Below are positions 3,721 to 27,412 of a stretch of DNA of 33,118 bases, one piece after another; positions within the stretch are counted from its first letter, which is position 1; each line of letters begins with the position of its first letter. Location: assembly GCA_009692785.1 (NCBI GenBank), contig SHYN01000007.1:1-33118 (forward strand), given 5' to 3'. The notes beneath the pieces were generated by a model. That model worked only from the letters and a program-made list of their open reading frames with translations. It was not told where the DNA came from and ran no database searches. Made by a program: the position numbers and the translations under genes. Origin of the DNA: Chloroflexota bacterium. Lineage in GTDB: Bacteria; Chloroflexota; Limnocylindria; P2-11E.

Positions 3721-5151
<1,431 letters not shown>

Positions 5152-5166
5152 TCATACGTTGGGGAC

Positions 5167-6027
5167 CTAACCCTTGGCCAGGGCTTCGGCGCCGGATGCG
5201 ATCTCGAGCATTTCCTTGGTGATACGGGTCTGCCGTGCCTTGTTCGCGGCGAGCGTGAGGTCGGCGATGATGTCGCGGGCGGCGTCGGTCGCACTGCGCA
5301 TCGCGACCATCTGGGCCGAGTACTGCGAGGCCTTGGACTCGAGCAACGCCTGGAACACCGCGAGCTCCACAAGCCGCGGAAGCACCTGCTCGAGCACGCC
5401 GACGGCGTCGGGCTCAAAGAGGTACTGGAGCGGTGGGAGGGCGTCGAGATCCTCGTCCTCTGGGACCAGGGGCAGGACCCGTCGGATCGTCGGGACCTGG
5501 CGAAGCGTGTTCACAAACCGGGTGAAAGCGACGTGCACCTCGTCCACCCGCTCCGTGAGGAACTCCTCCTGGGCGATCCGCGCGATCGGGTTGGTATCGA
5601 CGGTGGTCGGGCGGTCCGTGAGTCCCGCGAACTCGGCGACGACGCGCGCGCCAAGCCGGCGCAGCCCGTTGATCCCCTTGCGCCCAACGGCCACGTAGGA
5701 AACGGCGGGACGCTCATCGGCGAACTTCACCGCCGCACGAAGGAGGTTCACATTCATCGGTCCCACCAGGCCGCGGTCCGTCGTCACGAGAATGACGAGG
5801 ACGTTCTTCACCTCGCGATGCGCGAGGAGCGCGTGATCATCCGGCTCCGCAAAGGGCGCCAGATCATTCAGGACGGTGCGGAGCCGCTCCTCGTAGGGAC
5901 GAGACGCGAGCACCGCCGCCTGCGCACGGCGCATCTTGGAGGCCGCGACGAGCTGCATCGCTCGCGTGACCTGCTGGATGTTCTTGATGCTGCGCGCACG
6001 CTGGCGCAGCTCTCGCTCGGATGGCAC
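5167..6027 (-). CDS. atpG: F1Fo-ATP synthase gamma subunit
   Basis: A 286-residue rotor shaft. The N-terminal SIKNIQQVTRAMQLVAASKM coiled-coil signature and the C-terminal ATDAARDIIADLTLAANKAR and ITKEMLEI helix are diagnostic. GTG 6027 overlaps the atpA TAG by one base (TAGTG), consistent with translational coupling. Confidence 0.97.
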   Translation of the reverse strand: MPSERELRQRARSIKNIQQVTRAMQLVAASKMRRAQAAVLASRPYEERLRTVLNDLAPFAEPDDHALLAHREVKNVLVILVTTDRGLVGPMNVNLLRAAVKFADERPAVSYVAVGRKGINGLRRLGARVVAEFAGLTDRPTTVDTNPIARIAQEEFLTERVDEVHVAFTRFVNTLRQVPTIRRVLPLVPEDEDLDALPPLQYLFEPDAVGVLEQVLPRLVELAVFQALLESKASQYSAQMVAMRSATDAARDIIADLTLAANKARQTRITKEMLEIASGAEALAKG

Positions 6028-7544
6028 TAGGCCGCCGCCGCGTATGAGTGGGCCTTCTTGAACTCGTCGAGCATGGCGCGGAGGGACTTCTCGATCTCTG
6101 GTGTGAGCTTGCCTTCCTTCTTGATGGCCGCGCCTACGCCCTGCGCCTGCGTGTCCATCGAACGATAGAGATCGCGCTCGAAGTCACGCACCCGGGCGAC
6201 CGGCACATCGTCCAGGAACCCGTTCGTTCCGGCAAAGATGATGGCGACCTGCTTCTCGACGGGCACCGGGCCGTACTGGTGCTGCTTCAGGATCTCGGTG
6301 AGGCGCTCCCCGCGGCGGAGCTGGGCCTGCGTCACCTTGTCCAGATCGGAGCCGAACTGCGCGAACGCCGCGAGCTCGCGAAACTGCGCCATATCGAGCT
6401 TGAGCCGACCGGAGACCGTCTTCATCGCCTTGACCTGCGCGTCGCCGCCGACGCGGGAGACGGAGATGCCAACGTTGATCGCCGGGCGGATGCCCTGGTT
6501 GAAGAGATCGGTCTCGAGGAAGATCTGCCCATCCGTGATCGAGATGACGTTCGTCGGGATGTAGGCCGAGATGTCGTTCGCCTGCGTCTCGATAATCGGC
6601 AGTGCGGTGAGCGAGCCGCCCCCGTTCTCCTCGCTGAGGCGCGCGGCGCGCTCGAGGAGCCGGCTGTGGAGGTAGAAGACGTCACCGGGGTAGGCCTCGC
6701 GACCAGGCGGGCGTCGGGTGAGGAGTGAGACCTGGCGGTAGGCCCAGGCGTGCTTGGATAGGTCGTCGTACACGACGAGCGCATTCCCGCCCCGGTCGCG
6801 GAAGAACTCGCCCATCGCGCAACCGGAGAACGGGGCCAGGTACTGGAGCGTCGCGGGGCTGGATGAGCCGGCGATGACGACGATCGTGTGCTCCATCGCG
6901 CCGTGCTCCTCGAGCGTGGCGACGATCTTCGCGACCGACGACTCCTTCTGCCCGATCGCGACGTAGATGCAGATGACGCCGGTGCCCTTCTGGTTGATGA
7001 TCGCGTCGATCGCGACCGCCGTCTTGCCGGTCTGGCGGTCGCCGATGATGAGCTCACGCTGGCCGCGACCGATCGGGATCATCGCGTCGATCGCCTTGAT
7101 GCCCGTCTGGAGGGGGGTGTCGACGTTCTTCCGCATGATGACGCCTGGCGCGACGACGTCGGCCGGGCGCGACGCGGTCGTGGCGATCGGCCCCTTGCCA
7201 TCGACCGGTCGGCCGAGCGGGTCGACCACTCGACCGATGAGCGCATCCCCGACCGGCGTTTCGACGATCCGCCCCGTGGTGCGGACCACGCCGCCTTCCT
7301 TGATGCCCGTGTAATCGCCGAGCACGATCGCGCTCACGGTGTCCTCTTCGAGGTTGAAAGCGAGGCCGAACACCCCGTCGCCAAAGTCGAGAAGCTCCGA
7401 GGCCATGCAGCCGGCGAGGCCGTGGACGCGGGCGATGCCGTCGCCGATCTCAACGACGGTTCCCACGTCGGCCGAACCGGCGTGACCCTGGAACCCCTTG
7501 ATCTGGGCGGTGATGATGTTGGTGATCTCTGAAGTCGTGGCCAT
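6027..7544 (-). CDS. atpA: F1Fo-ATP synthase alpha subunit
   Basis: A 505-residue non-catalytic nucleotide-binding subunit. Walker A GDRQTGKT is at residues 168-175, and the arginine-finger segment [10 protein letters not shown] lies in the second half. Length and order match the family. The start is ATG 7544 with AAGGAG 9 nt upstream; the frame is open for about 140 further codons but those residues show no homology. It lies between atpH and atpG. Confidence 0.98.
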
Positions 7545-7557
7545 GGACGCTTTCTCC

Positions 7558-8088
7558 TTACGAAGCGAGCTGCACGCGAAGCGCGTTGAGCTGTCCGGCG
7601 AGCGACGCGTCGACCAGACGGTCGCCGATCTGCACCGTCGCGCCACCGAGGAGCGCAGGATCGACATGGAAGGTGGCACGGATGCGGCCGCCGCTCTTGC
7701 GCTCAAGCTCCGCGATGTACGTGGCGCGATGCGCGGCCTCGATCGCGACCGCCGTGGTGATACGGGCTTCCCGCGTCCCATCGCGACGATCGACCAATCT
7801 GCCGTAGGCCTCCGCGATGCCGGCGAGCAGAGCGATGCGGTCGCGCTCGACGAGAAGCCGGATGAGCGACCGAACGTCCTCGGGCTCCGACGCGGTCGCA
7901 GCCGCCGCGGCGGCGCGTCGGGCGGCCAGCGGGACACCGGGGTCCCGGAGTGCGCGGATGGTCGCGGCATCGAAGGCGGGGCCCAGTCGATCCAGGGATG
8001 CGCGGTAGGCCTCGACGGACTTCGCGGCCTGCGCGAGGTCGAACATCGCCTCCGCGTACCGCCGTGGCGCCGAACCGTCGAGTGCCAT
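7558..8088 (-). CDS. atpH: F1Fo-ATP synthase delta subunit
   Basis: A 176-residue peripheral-stalk subunit linking the F1 head to subunit b. The N-terminal helical-bundle start ([13 protein letters not shown]) and the C-terminal [19 protein letters not shown] motif are clear. ATG 8088 overlaps the atpF stop as TGATG. Confidence 0.95.
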
Positions 8089-25082: not shown

Positions 25083-25583
25083 TCAGCGAGTGTGCGCTCC
25101 TTTTCGGGAGTGCGGTTCTCGGGCGTGCCCCTCGTCGATCAGCTCCCACTCCCGGGCCGCGTAGAGGTCCCCGCCGGTGACGAGCGCGGCGCCGACCGTG
25201 ACGAGGGAGAGGATCCCGATGAGGAGCGGCGCGGGCGAGGCGCCGGCGGCGCCGAGCTCCCCCGAACGAAGTGCCATCGAGATCGTGGCGGCCACCGCGG
25301 CCAGTGCCAAAACGGCGAGGTCGATCCTCGCCAGCGACCGCTCATCTCCCGGGACGTCGCGGAGCTCGGCGAGCGAGCAGAGGACGGCGAGCAGACCGAG
25401 GATGGCGACCCCACCGAAGAGCCAGTAGGCGGCCCAGACGAAGGCGTTGGTCTCACGGGTCCCCCAGGCGAACCAGGCGGCGAGGTCAACCAGGACCGCT
25501 GCAAGACCGAGTCCGAACGCGACCTGACCGAACGCCGGACGAAGCGCAAAGCCGAGACGCCGACCCTGAAGCAGTTCTTTCAT
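25083..25583 (-). CDS. Small four-helix membrane protein, DUF2231-like
   Basis: A 166-residue protein with four predicted membrane helices (about 22-42, 48-70, 88-106, 117-137) and a charged cytoplasmic tail. The spacing (NAFVWAAYWLFGGVAILGLL, then RSLARIDLAVLALAAVAAT) recalls DUF2231 membrane proteins. The assignment is tentative. It is the first gene of a three-gene unit with the ABC exporter, 4 nt before the ATPase gene, so an accessory role in that transporter is plausible. ATG 25583 has a TACCAT box 7 nt upstream. Confidence 0.7.
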   Translation of the reverse strand: MKELLQGRRLGFALRPAFGQVAFGLGLAAVLVDLAAWFAWGTRETNAFVWAAYWLFGGVAILGLLAVLCSLAELRDVPGDERSLARIDLAVLALAAVAATISMALRSGELGAAGASPAPLLIGILSLVTVGAALVTGGDLYAAREWELIDEGHAREPHSRKGAHTR

Positions 25584-25590
25584 TTGTCGG

Positions 25591-25596
25591 ATGGTA
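25591..25596 (-). promoter_or_regulatory. TACCAT -10 element before the ABC exporter unit
   Basis: TACCAT, 7 nt, then ATG 25583, with no Shine-Dalgarno sequence. It fits the recurrent TANCRT leaderless pattern. Confidence 0.5.
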
Positions 25597-25630
25597 CCGG
25601 GCCGGGCGACCGCCCGTCCTTCTCGGGCAG

Positions 25631-25795
25631 TCAGCATCCCGGCTCGCCGTCGTTGCCGCAGCATGTGCTCCGGCGCGTGAAGCGCAGGGCGGCGTTCCGA
25701 GCGGTGACGACAAGCCGGAGCGGGAACGGGATCTCGCTGTTGAGAAAATTGCGGAGCGCGCTGGACGGTGCGCCTCGCGGATGCTTCACCCGCAT
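25631..25795 (-). CDS. 54-residue protein with a C-terminal CCGNDGEPGC motif
   Basis: A basic, mildly amphipathic body (ALRNFLNSEIPFPLRLVVTA, then RNAALRF) ends in TRRSTCCGNDGEPGC, with Cys45, Cys46 and Cys54 as the final residue. I recall similar small hypothetical proteins with CCGxxGEPGC tails in Chloroflexota and Actinobacteria, but know no function; metal binding or redox chemistry is only a guess. ATG 25795 is the likely start. It lies 47 nt upstream of the DUF2231-like gene on the same strand and is divergent from the molybdopterin oxidoreductase. Confidence 0.6.
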   Translation of the reverse strand: MRVKHPRGAPSSALRNFLNSEIPFPLRLVVTARNAALRFTRRSTCCGNDGEPGC

Positions 25796-25873: not shown

Positions 25874-27412
25874 ATGGTGAACGCTTCGCTTCGGGATGCT
25901 CGCACCGGCCTCCTGCTGGGCCTTCTCGCGAGCTCGTTCGGATTGCTCGTCTCGTTCGTGCTCGGCTGGCAGGGCGTCTCCTTCGCGCCGGCCAGTGCCG
26001 GCCAGGCGTTCATCGAGCTGCTCCCCGGCTTCATCGCCATTCCACTGATCGAGCTGCTCCACGAGTGGGCGAAGCGGCTGCTGGAGATCGCGGTCGTCAT
26101 CCTGTTCCTGGCCGCCGGAGCCTTCGCCGGGCGCGTGGCCGTCGACGCGCGGCGCGGCGCGGGTCTGGTCGCGGCGCTCGCGGCCGGACCCTGGGCCCTC
26201 ACCGTCGCGCTCGGGTCCATCTTCGCGGGCGGCAAGGTCGATCTCGCTGGCACCCTGCTCAATGCGTCGCTCGGTGCGCTGGCCCAGGTCGCCGCCCTCG
26301 CCTGGCTCTCGAGCAGCACCGCGGAGCTCGCGCCGTCCTCCGCGAGCCGTCGACGAGCGCTGGTCAGGGTGGCCGCCGTCGCGGCGACGATCGCCGGAGC
26401 CAGCGCGCTCTTCGGATCAGGGCTGCGCACGCTCGGAACCAGGCTCGGCGATGTCGCGTTCGTCGCCCGAACGCTCAAGCTCCGCGTCGACCCCACCCCC
26501 GAAGAGCCGCCCTTCGCGCGGATCGCGGGCCTCACACCGCGCCTGACGCCGACGGCGGACCACTACACGGTGGACAGCGCGCTCCTCAAACCAGCGGTCG
26601 ACATCGCGCAGTGGACCCTCGAGGTCAAGGGTGCGGTCGAGCGACCGTTCACGCTCACGTACGCCGAGCTGCTCGACCTCGCCGCGGTCGAGCAGCTTCA
26701 CACCCTCGCCTGCATCAGCAACCAGATCGGCGGCTCGCTCAGCGGTACGTCACTCTGGACCGGCGTGCCGCTCGGCGACCTCCTGGCACGCGCCGGCATG
26801 AAGGCGGGGGCCTTTGACGTGGTGCTGCGTTCGGTCGATGGCTACGCCGATTCGATCCTGCTCGCAAAAGCCCTGGAGCCACAGACGGTGGTGGCCTACC
26901 TCATGAATGGACGGACGATCCCGCAGGATCACGGCTACCCGGTGCGCGTCCTCGTGCCGAACATCTACGGCATGAAGAACGTGAAGTGGCTGCGCGCGAT
27001 CGAGGTCGTGACCTTTGACTTCAAGGGCTACTGGATGGAGCGTGGCTGGTCGGACCTCGCGCTCGTGAACACCGCGGTGCGCATCGATGTCCCTGGTCGC
27101 ACGCTCAAGTGGGACGGTCGCGAGGTGACCATCGCCGGCATCGCGCTCGCGGGAAGCCGCGGGATCTCACAGGTGGAGGTCTCGTTCGACGGTGCCGCGT
27201 CCTGGCAGGTCGCGACCTTCGAGCCTGCCCTCGGTCCGCTCACCTGGCGGCGCTGGGCGATCGCGTGGACCCCGCGGTCCGTGGGCACCCACAACCTCGC
27301 CGCCCGCGCGACCGACGGGACCGGACAGCTGCAGACCGCCGTGAGACGGGAGCCCTTTCCCGATGGCGCAACTGGCTACGACCGGATGGACGTCAGCGTC
27401 CAGCGCGGATGA
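25874..27412 (+). CDS. Membrane-anchored sulfite-oxidase-family molybdopterin oxidoreductase
   Basis: A 512-residue protein. Residues 1-150 hold four or five membrane helices. SRRRALV (158-164) followed by a hydrophobic stretch (about 166-182) resembles a Tat signal inside the chain. The catalytic domain (about 230-512) is of the sulfite oxidase/YedY type, with the molybdenum-ligand Cys280 in HTLACISNQIGG, then VVAYLMNGRTIPQDHGYPVR and IYGMKNVKWL. A C-terminal Mo-oxidoreductase dimerisation domain follows (segment SQVEVSFDGAASW). The catalytic part probably faces outside. The substrate may be sulfite or another oxo-compound. Start: ATG 25874 or GTG 25877; ATG 25799 is a longer in-frame option. 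It overlaps the GH3 gene by ATGA. Confidence 0.92.
   Translation: MVNASLRDARTGLLLGLLASSFGLLVSFVLGWQGVSFAPASAGQAFIELLPGFIAIPLIELLHEWAKRLLEIAVVILFLAAGAFAGRVAVDARRGAGLVAALAAGPWALTVALGSIFAGGKVDLAGTLLNASLGALAQVAALAWLSSSTAELAPSSASRRRALVRVAAVAATIAGASALFGSGLRTLGTRLGDVAFVARTLKLRVDPTPEEPPFARIAGLTPRLTPTADHYTVDSALLKPAVDIAQWTLEVKGAVERPFTLTYAELLDLAAVEQLHTLACISNQIGGSLSGTSLWTGVPLGDLLARAGMKAGAFDVVLRSVDGYADSILLAKALEPQTVVAYLMNGRTIPQDHGYPVRVLVPNIYGMKNVKWLRAIEVVTFDFKGYWMERGWSDLALVNTAVRIDVPGRTLKWDGREVTIAGIALAGSRGISQVEVSFDGAASWQVATFEPALGPLTWRRWAIAWTPRSVGTHNLAARATDGTGQLQTAVRREPFPDGATGYDRMDVSVQRG

Follow-up and report, generated by a model that had tools for sequence, protein, structure and literature searches.

Known systems combining Sec and Tat

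In the actinobacterial Rieske protein Sco2149, helices inserted by Sec are followed by an internal twin-arginine (RR) helix that is inserted by Tat (Tooke et al. 2017, PMC5449189). The same paper describes Sco3746 of Streptomyces coelicolor, a MoCo protein of five helices in which histidines of TMDs 2-4 are predicted to bind b heme; MBP and AmiA reporter fusions showed that it depends on Tat. The Sec/Tat logic for a molybdoenzyme is hence an already published principle. The paper also provides a rule for release from Sec, namely low hydrophobicity of the last helix combined with positive charges after it. A MoCo enzyme and a membrane module also work together in MsrP/MsrQ (YedY/YedZ), as two chains with a heme partner (PMC5449189).

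Here, we analysed a window of 33,118 nucleotides from a Chloroflexota bacterium (contig SHYN01000007.1 of assembly GCA_009692785.1) and found a protein with the plan of Sco3746: five helices, an N-terminus predicted inside, an RR motif directly before the fifth helix and a C-terminal MoCo domain with the sulfite-oxidase fold. As in Sco2149, putative Sec helices precede the internal RR helix, but the Rieske protein has three helices and an iron-sulfur domain. We propose, with a probability of roughly 0.84, that the window protein is an integral-membrane molybdoenzyme relying on two translocases, with helices that would be inserted by Sec and an internal Tat signal that would then export the folded MoCo domain. 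Judged from its sequence, it is apparently a heme-free variant, in which the combination of Sec helices with an internal Tat signal and a MoCo domain would have been assembled independently of the Sco3746 type. No earlier description of a heme-free class was found in the literature searched; the TATFind/TMHMM list of Tooke et al. could include such proteins.

Gene, start and domain layout

The coding sequence (25874..27412, + strand) specifies a polytopic sulfite-oxidase-fold molybdoenzyme of 512 residues, is free of internal stops and has near-full-length homologues in genomes of the same family. The ATG at 25874 is a plausible start, since GC by codon position changes from 0.78/0.70/0.57 in the upstream in-frame extension to 0.70/0.52/0.88 within the ORF, and since alignments with homologues begin at about residue 7. 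The first-pass annotation had read a molybdopterin oxidoreductase with a sulfite-oxidase domain after the RR helix, and Pfam confirms it: the MoCo-binding domain covers residues 240-387 (26591..27034, + strand; PF00174, Oxidored_molyb, E 2.7e-44). Its Mo ligand, Cys280, is invariant in 31/31 sequences of alignment A1 (mean column identity 42%). A Mo-co dimerisation-type domain (Mo-co_dimer) follows at residues 399-487 (27068..27334, + strand; PF03404, E 2e-5). Pfam detects no known domain in the four-helix module, and Foldseek with the membrane module alone returns no match at E <=0.001; the best VIA Z is 6.3, and neither result speaks for or against a known fold.

For the catalytic part, the top fold match in Foldseek is SorA (2blf, E 3.2e-26), which is a periplasmic enzyme. 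The NCBIfam equivalogs SorA, SoxC, SorT and MsrP all match the window protein, and all four do so far under their cut-offs (for instance 137.7 bits against 600 for SorA and 53.9 against 207 for MsrP). In the alignment, D234, a gap and W392 stand opposite the SorA residues R55, R109 and Y236, which we take to be substrate-site residues; sulfite is therefore an improbable substrate. The combination of a MoCo enzyme with a membrane module recalls MsrP/MsrQ, but here both parts belong to a single chain.

Homologue samples

The class sample comprises 54 proteins, drawn from the window genome and from relatives in its class. At least 80 named loci were obtained by an alignment scan, whereas a peptide scan with the window protein alone as query gave no named relatives; among the matches listed, the six nearest named loci are Chloroflexi bacteria, which places the host with Chloroflexota MAGs. 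The wide set of 125 proteins unites the 54 of the class sample and 80 named loci, less nine duplicate loci. Setting aside seven shortened or unalignable proteins and 14 helix-less ones leaves 104 polytopic homologues. Among the helix-less proteins, two (L052, L096) are cut by contig ends, two (L055, L115) are without RR and 10 were used as evidence. The heme-free module occurs in Chloroflexota, Actinomycetota, Thaumarchaeota and haloarchaea, and is wide in the first two.

For comparison, a Sco3746-type set of 69 proteins from 76 loci was picked by published description and helix coordinates; it represents mostly one large actinobacterial genus resembling Streptomyces. Sco3746 itself was sought by means of eight residues and five helix positions given in PMC5449189 and was not recovered, the best score being 4/8. 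L318 and L319, which have helices at the coordinates printed there for Sco3746 TMD1-4, stand in as the type.

Membrane helices and topology

Four spans precede the RR motif, all on the + strand: TM1 (residues 10-32, with the N-terminus in; 25901..25969; dG -0.58; AF2 helix 2-32), TM2 (residues 68-90; 26075..26143; dG -0.98; AF2 helix 65-90), TM3 (residues 96-117; 26159..26224; dG 0.81; AF2 helix 96-117) and TM4 (residues 124-147; 26243..26314; dG 1.16; AF2 helix starting at 124). TM5, the proposed Tat-inserted uncleaved anchor, spans residues 162-182 (26357..26419, + strand; dG 0.72-0.89; AF2 helix starting at 156). The pLDDT of the AF2 model is 89.4 for the whole protein and 91.1 for residues 1-190. 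An even number of helices ahead of the RR, placing it inside the cell, had been set as a check, and this is the common arrangement among the polytopic homologues: four helices in 85 of the 104, against five in nine, three in nine and two in one. Some of the three- and two-helix counts perhaps result from misplaced starts. Furthermore, the density of Lys+Arg is higher on the side predicted to be cytoplasmic (N-in/RR-in) in 22/22 near relatives and in 97/104 homologues overall. Helix count and positive-inside bias thus point to a cytoplasmic RR and a catalytic domain outside the cell, and the AF2 model agrees.

The twin-arginine motif

The motif S158-R-R-R-A-L163 (26345..26362, + strand) would lie on the cytoplasmic side; SRRRALV and a hydrophobic stretch through residue 182 are indeed found where the first reading placed them. 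Conservation of the RR in homologues, also proposed as a check, is high at every scale. R159 and R160 are invariant in 31/31 sequences of A1 and are, together with P51, the sole invariant columns before residue 231. In the class sample, Arg occupies position 159 in 53/54 proteins and position 160 in 54/54. The RR is present in 117/125 proteins of the wide set, three of the eight exceptions being gaps, and in 101/104 polytopic homologues, the others having KR (two) or RS (one). A loose Tat-like pattern occurs at the place of the motif in 89 of these 104, and elsewhere in them matches only 13 times in 54,230 residues. Of 25 N-terminal modules from the family, four are matched by the NCBIfam Tat-signal model TIGR01409 (E 2.5e-4 at best); the window protein itself is not.

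Ten Nitrospirota homologues (L078, L098, L100, L103, L107, L112, L118, L119, L123 and L128) are without the four helices and carry the aligned RR near their own N-terminus, at residues 5-40. As aligned, this placement resembles an ordinary N-terminal Tat signal and is a natural control.

Proposed hand-over from Sec to Tat

TM5 of the window protein is poorly hydrophobic, with a dG of 0.5-0.9 kcal/mol that varies with the scan window, and is followed at residues 185-204 (26426..26485, + strand) by a basic stretch comprising R185, R190, R199, K202 and R204 as well as the acidic D193. The low hydrophobicity of the last helix, which was to be checked, therefore holds for the window protein but not for its homologues in general, since the dG of TM5 is above 0 in only 56/104 of the polytopic ones. 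Moreover, TM5 is the least hydrophobic of the five helices in only 22/85, and only 58/104 have a net positive charge behind it. For contrast, TM5 has a dG above 0 in 69/69 proteins of the Sco3746-type set. Going by these sequences, the Sec-release features described by Tooke et al. are not universal in the family of the window protein.

The assembly that we propose would proceed as follows. SRP/Sec would insert TM1-TM4 with the N-terminus in, so that the loop between TM4 and TM5, which carries S-R-R-R-A-L, stays in the cytoplasm. Sec would not complete the insertion of TM5, a helix of weak hydrophobicity with basic residues behind it. The C-terminal domain would then fold in the cytoplasm and load molybdopterin on Cys280. 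Finally, Tat would read the RR signal within the chain and insert TM5, moving the loaded domain outside, where it would stay anchored by TM5 without cleavage. TatC, two TatA-like genes, MoaC and MoeA are present in the genome, which is about 67% complete. The first-pass annotation had extended the Sec/Tat logic of the actinobacterial Rieske protein to a molybdoenzyme; RR conservation and the predicted cytoplasmic position of the RR speak in favor of this extension.

Alternative explanations

Sec alone might insert all five helices and export the C-terminal domain unfolded, in which case the RR would be a positive-inside anchor and the cofactor would be lost or gained outside. Such a route would suit the 48/104 homologues in which the dG of TM5 is not above 0, so that Sec could insert this helix. 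It fits poorly with the near-exclusive use of RR rather than other basic pairs, and with the invariance of C280, as MoCo insertion into enzymes takes place in the cytoplasm. Since high-GC genomes prefer Arg regardless, we also considered the 10 polytopic homologues from loci below 50% GC. Arg makes up 0.44 of their cytoplasmic-side basic residues outside the motif, Lys thus being equally available, yet it is found in 8/10 at position 159 and in 9/10 at position 160. This retention speaks against a mere positive-inside anchor, which would accept Lys, and we regard export by Sec alone as very improbable. A different objection to the two-translocase reading concerns the topology: if residues 44-62 were a true span, there would be five helices ahead of the RR, so that either the motif or the catalytic domain would be on the other side and the Tat step would be unneeded. 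In the window protein, these residues are of marginal hydrophobicity (dG 1.5-1.9). AF2 nevertheless resolves the segment into two short helices, residues 38-49 and 52-62 (25985..26059, + strand), just 12 and 11 residues long and broken at P51, a residue conserved in 98/104 homologues (K67 in 90/104). Residue 55 is Lys in 32/104 homologues, with Asp or Glu close by, and the positive-inside bias agrees with four spans. In all nine five-helix homologues, the additional segment is this 38-64 region. A fifth span ahead of the RR therefore has hardly any likelihood; of the "several hydrophobic helices" noticed in the first-pass annotation, four stand as spans, whereas the 44-62 stretch is probably a pair of extracytoplasmic or interfacial helices.

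Another possibility is that the window protein simply belongs to the heme-MoCo family published for Sco3746, with which it shares the plan of four helices, RR, TM5 and MoCo domain. The MoCo domains are homologous: hhalign gives 99.9% (E 5.5e-32) between the window family and the Sco3746 type, and the best matches reach 35-39% identity across about 135 residues. The four-helix modules tell a different story. In four comparisons, the Sco3746-type module scores only 0.1-0.4% by hhalign against the modules of near relatives, actinobacteria, Thaumarchaeota and haloarchaea, and is thus non-homologous to them by profile, whereas four comparisons of heme-free modules among themselves give 59-95% (E 9.5e-5 to 3.4e-8). 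In the set picked by description, the Sco3746-type module resembles cytochrome b561 and has conserved His columns, the one in TM2 and the two in TM4 being occupied in 69/69 proteins and the one near TM3 in 67/69, with RR in 69/69; for two proteins of the heme type, Pfam gives weak, below-cut-off matches to cytochrome b561 (E 6e-5 and 0.0016). These heme-ligand columns are without counterpart in the window family: no conserved His column exists in residues 1-200 of the 54 class-sample proteins, the best being H63 (10/54), outside the spans. The Sco3746-type proteins also stop after the MoCo domain, the median distance between the HGxP[AV]R motif and the C-terminus being 28 residues, against 159 in the window family. 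A quick-method tree of 75 rows, based on the catalytic part, has the six Sco3746-type rows on one side of a branch, but it comes with a long-branch warning and is given no weight here. A search of six genomes with one Sco3746-type query revealed both types in a Halovivax genome, namely the His-bearing L336 and, without heme ligands, L343 and L348. Given the differences in module, histidines and length, ordinary membership in the Sco3746 family is scarcely credible, and a two-translocase molybdoenzyme of separate make-up remains our preferred reading.

A proposed heme-free class and its gene neighbourhood

A wider proposal would be that such proteins form an independent heme-free Sec/Tat class, with members in several bacterial phyla and in two groups of archaea. 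Its cofactor-free four-helix module, with conserved P51 and K67 on the outer side, would replace cytochrome b; it might, for instance, bind quinone and exchange electrons directly with the molybdenum. We put this forward tentatively and hold it to be rather unlikely in its full form: separate assembly has good support, and the quinone role of the module is speculation. The comparison with Sco3746 suggests that the hand-over from Sec to Tat within one polypeptide had more than one origin, on the same MoCo domain and with unrelated membrane modules. The two types thereby offer a natural replicate in which to test what sequence features lie behind the release of the last helix by Sec. They also prompt one to ask how an enzyme with the sulfite-oxidase fold operates alongside a heme-less membrane partner.

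Clustering of the flanks of 125 loci, based on a crude gene caller, revealed no conserved redox partner gene across lineages. A candidate neighbour partner in the window is a divergent small four-helix protein (25083..25664, - strand), DUF2231-like with an E of 0.012 that is under the Pfam cut-off. A DUF2231-like protein also adjoins the molybdoenzyme gene in six relatives (L003, L012, L017, L019, L020 and L053).

Fasciclin-domain genes are often found near the actinobacterial heme-free homologues, in some cases with RskA-type anti-sigma genes (L136-L140 on plasmids, and L145, L148, L155, L158, L159, L163, L164, L167, L169, L173, L102 and L129). Fasciclin neighbours occur at 10/27 class-sample loci and 2/10 named loci, against 0/30 Sco3746-type loci and 0/24 near Chloroflexota. 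Among the actinobacterial plasmid loci, fasciclin is annotated in 4/5 and anti-sigma in 2/5. This fasciclin/anti-sigma neighbourhood suggests a stress regulon. On a Thermus thermophilus plasmid (L142), a molybdopterin oxidoreductase is annotated near sigma-70 and anti-sigma factors, with stops in the frame translated. Elsewhere in the window, two ATP-synthase alpha/beta-type subunits, one of them with a V/A-type C-terminal domain, are encoded at 3721-5139 and 6027-7970, both on the - strand.
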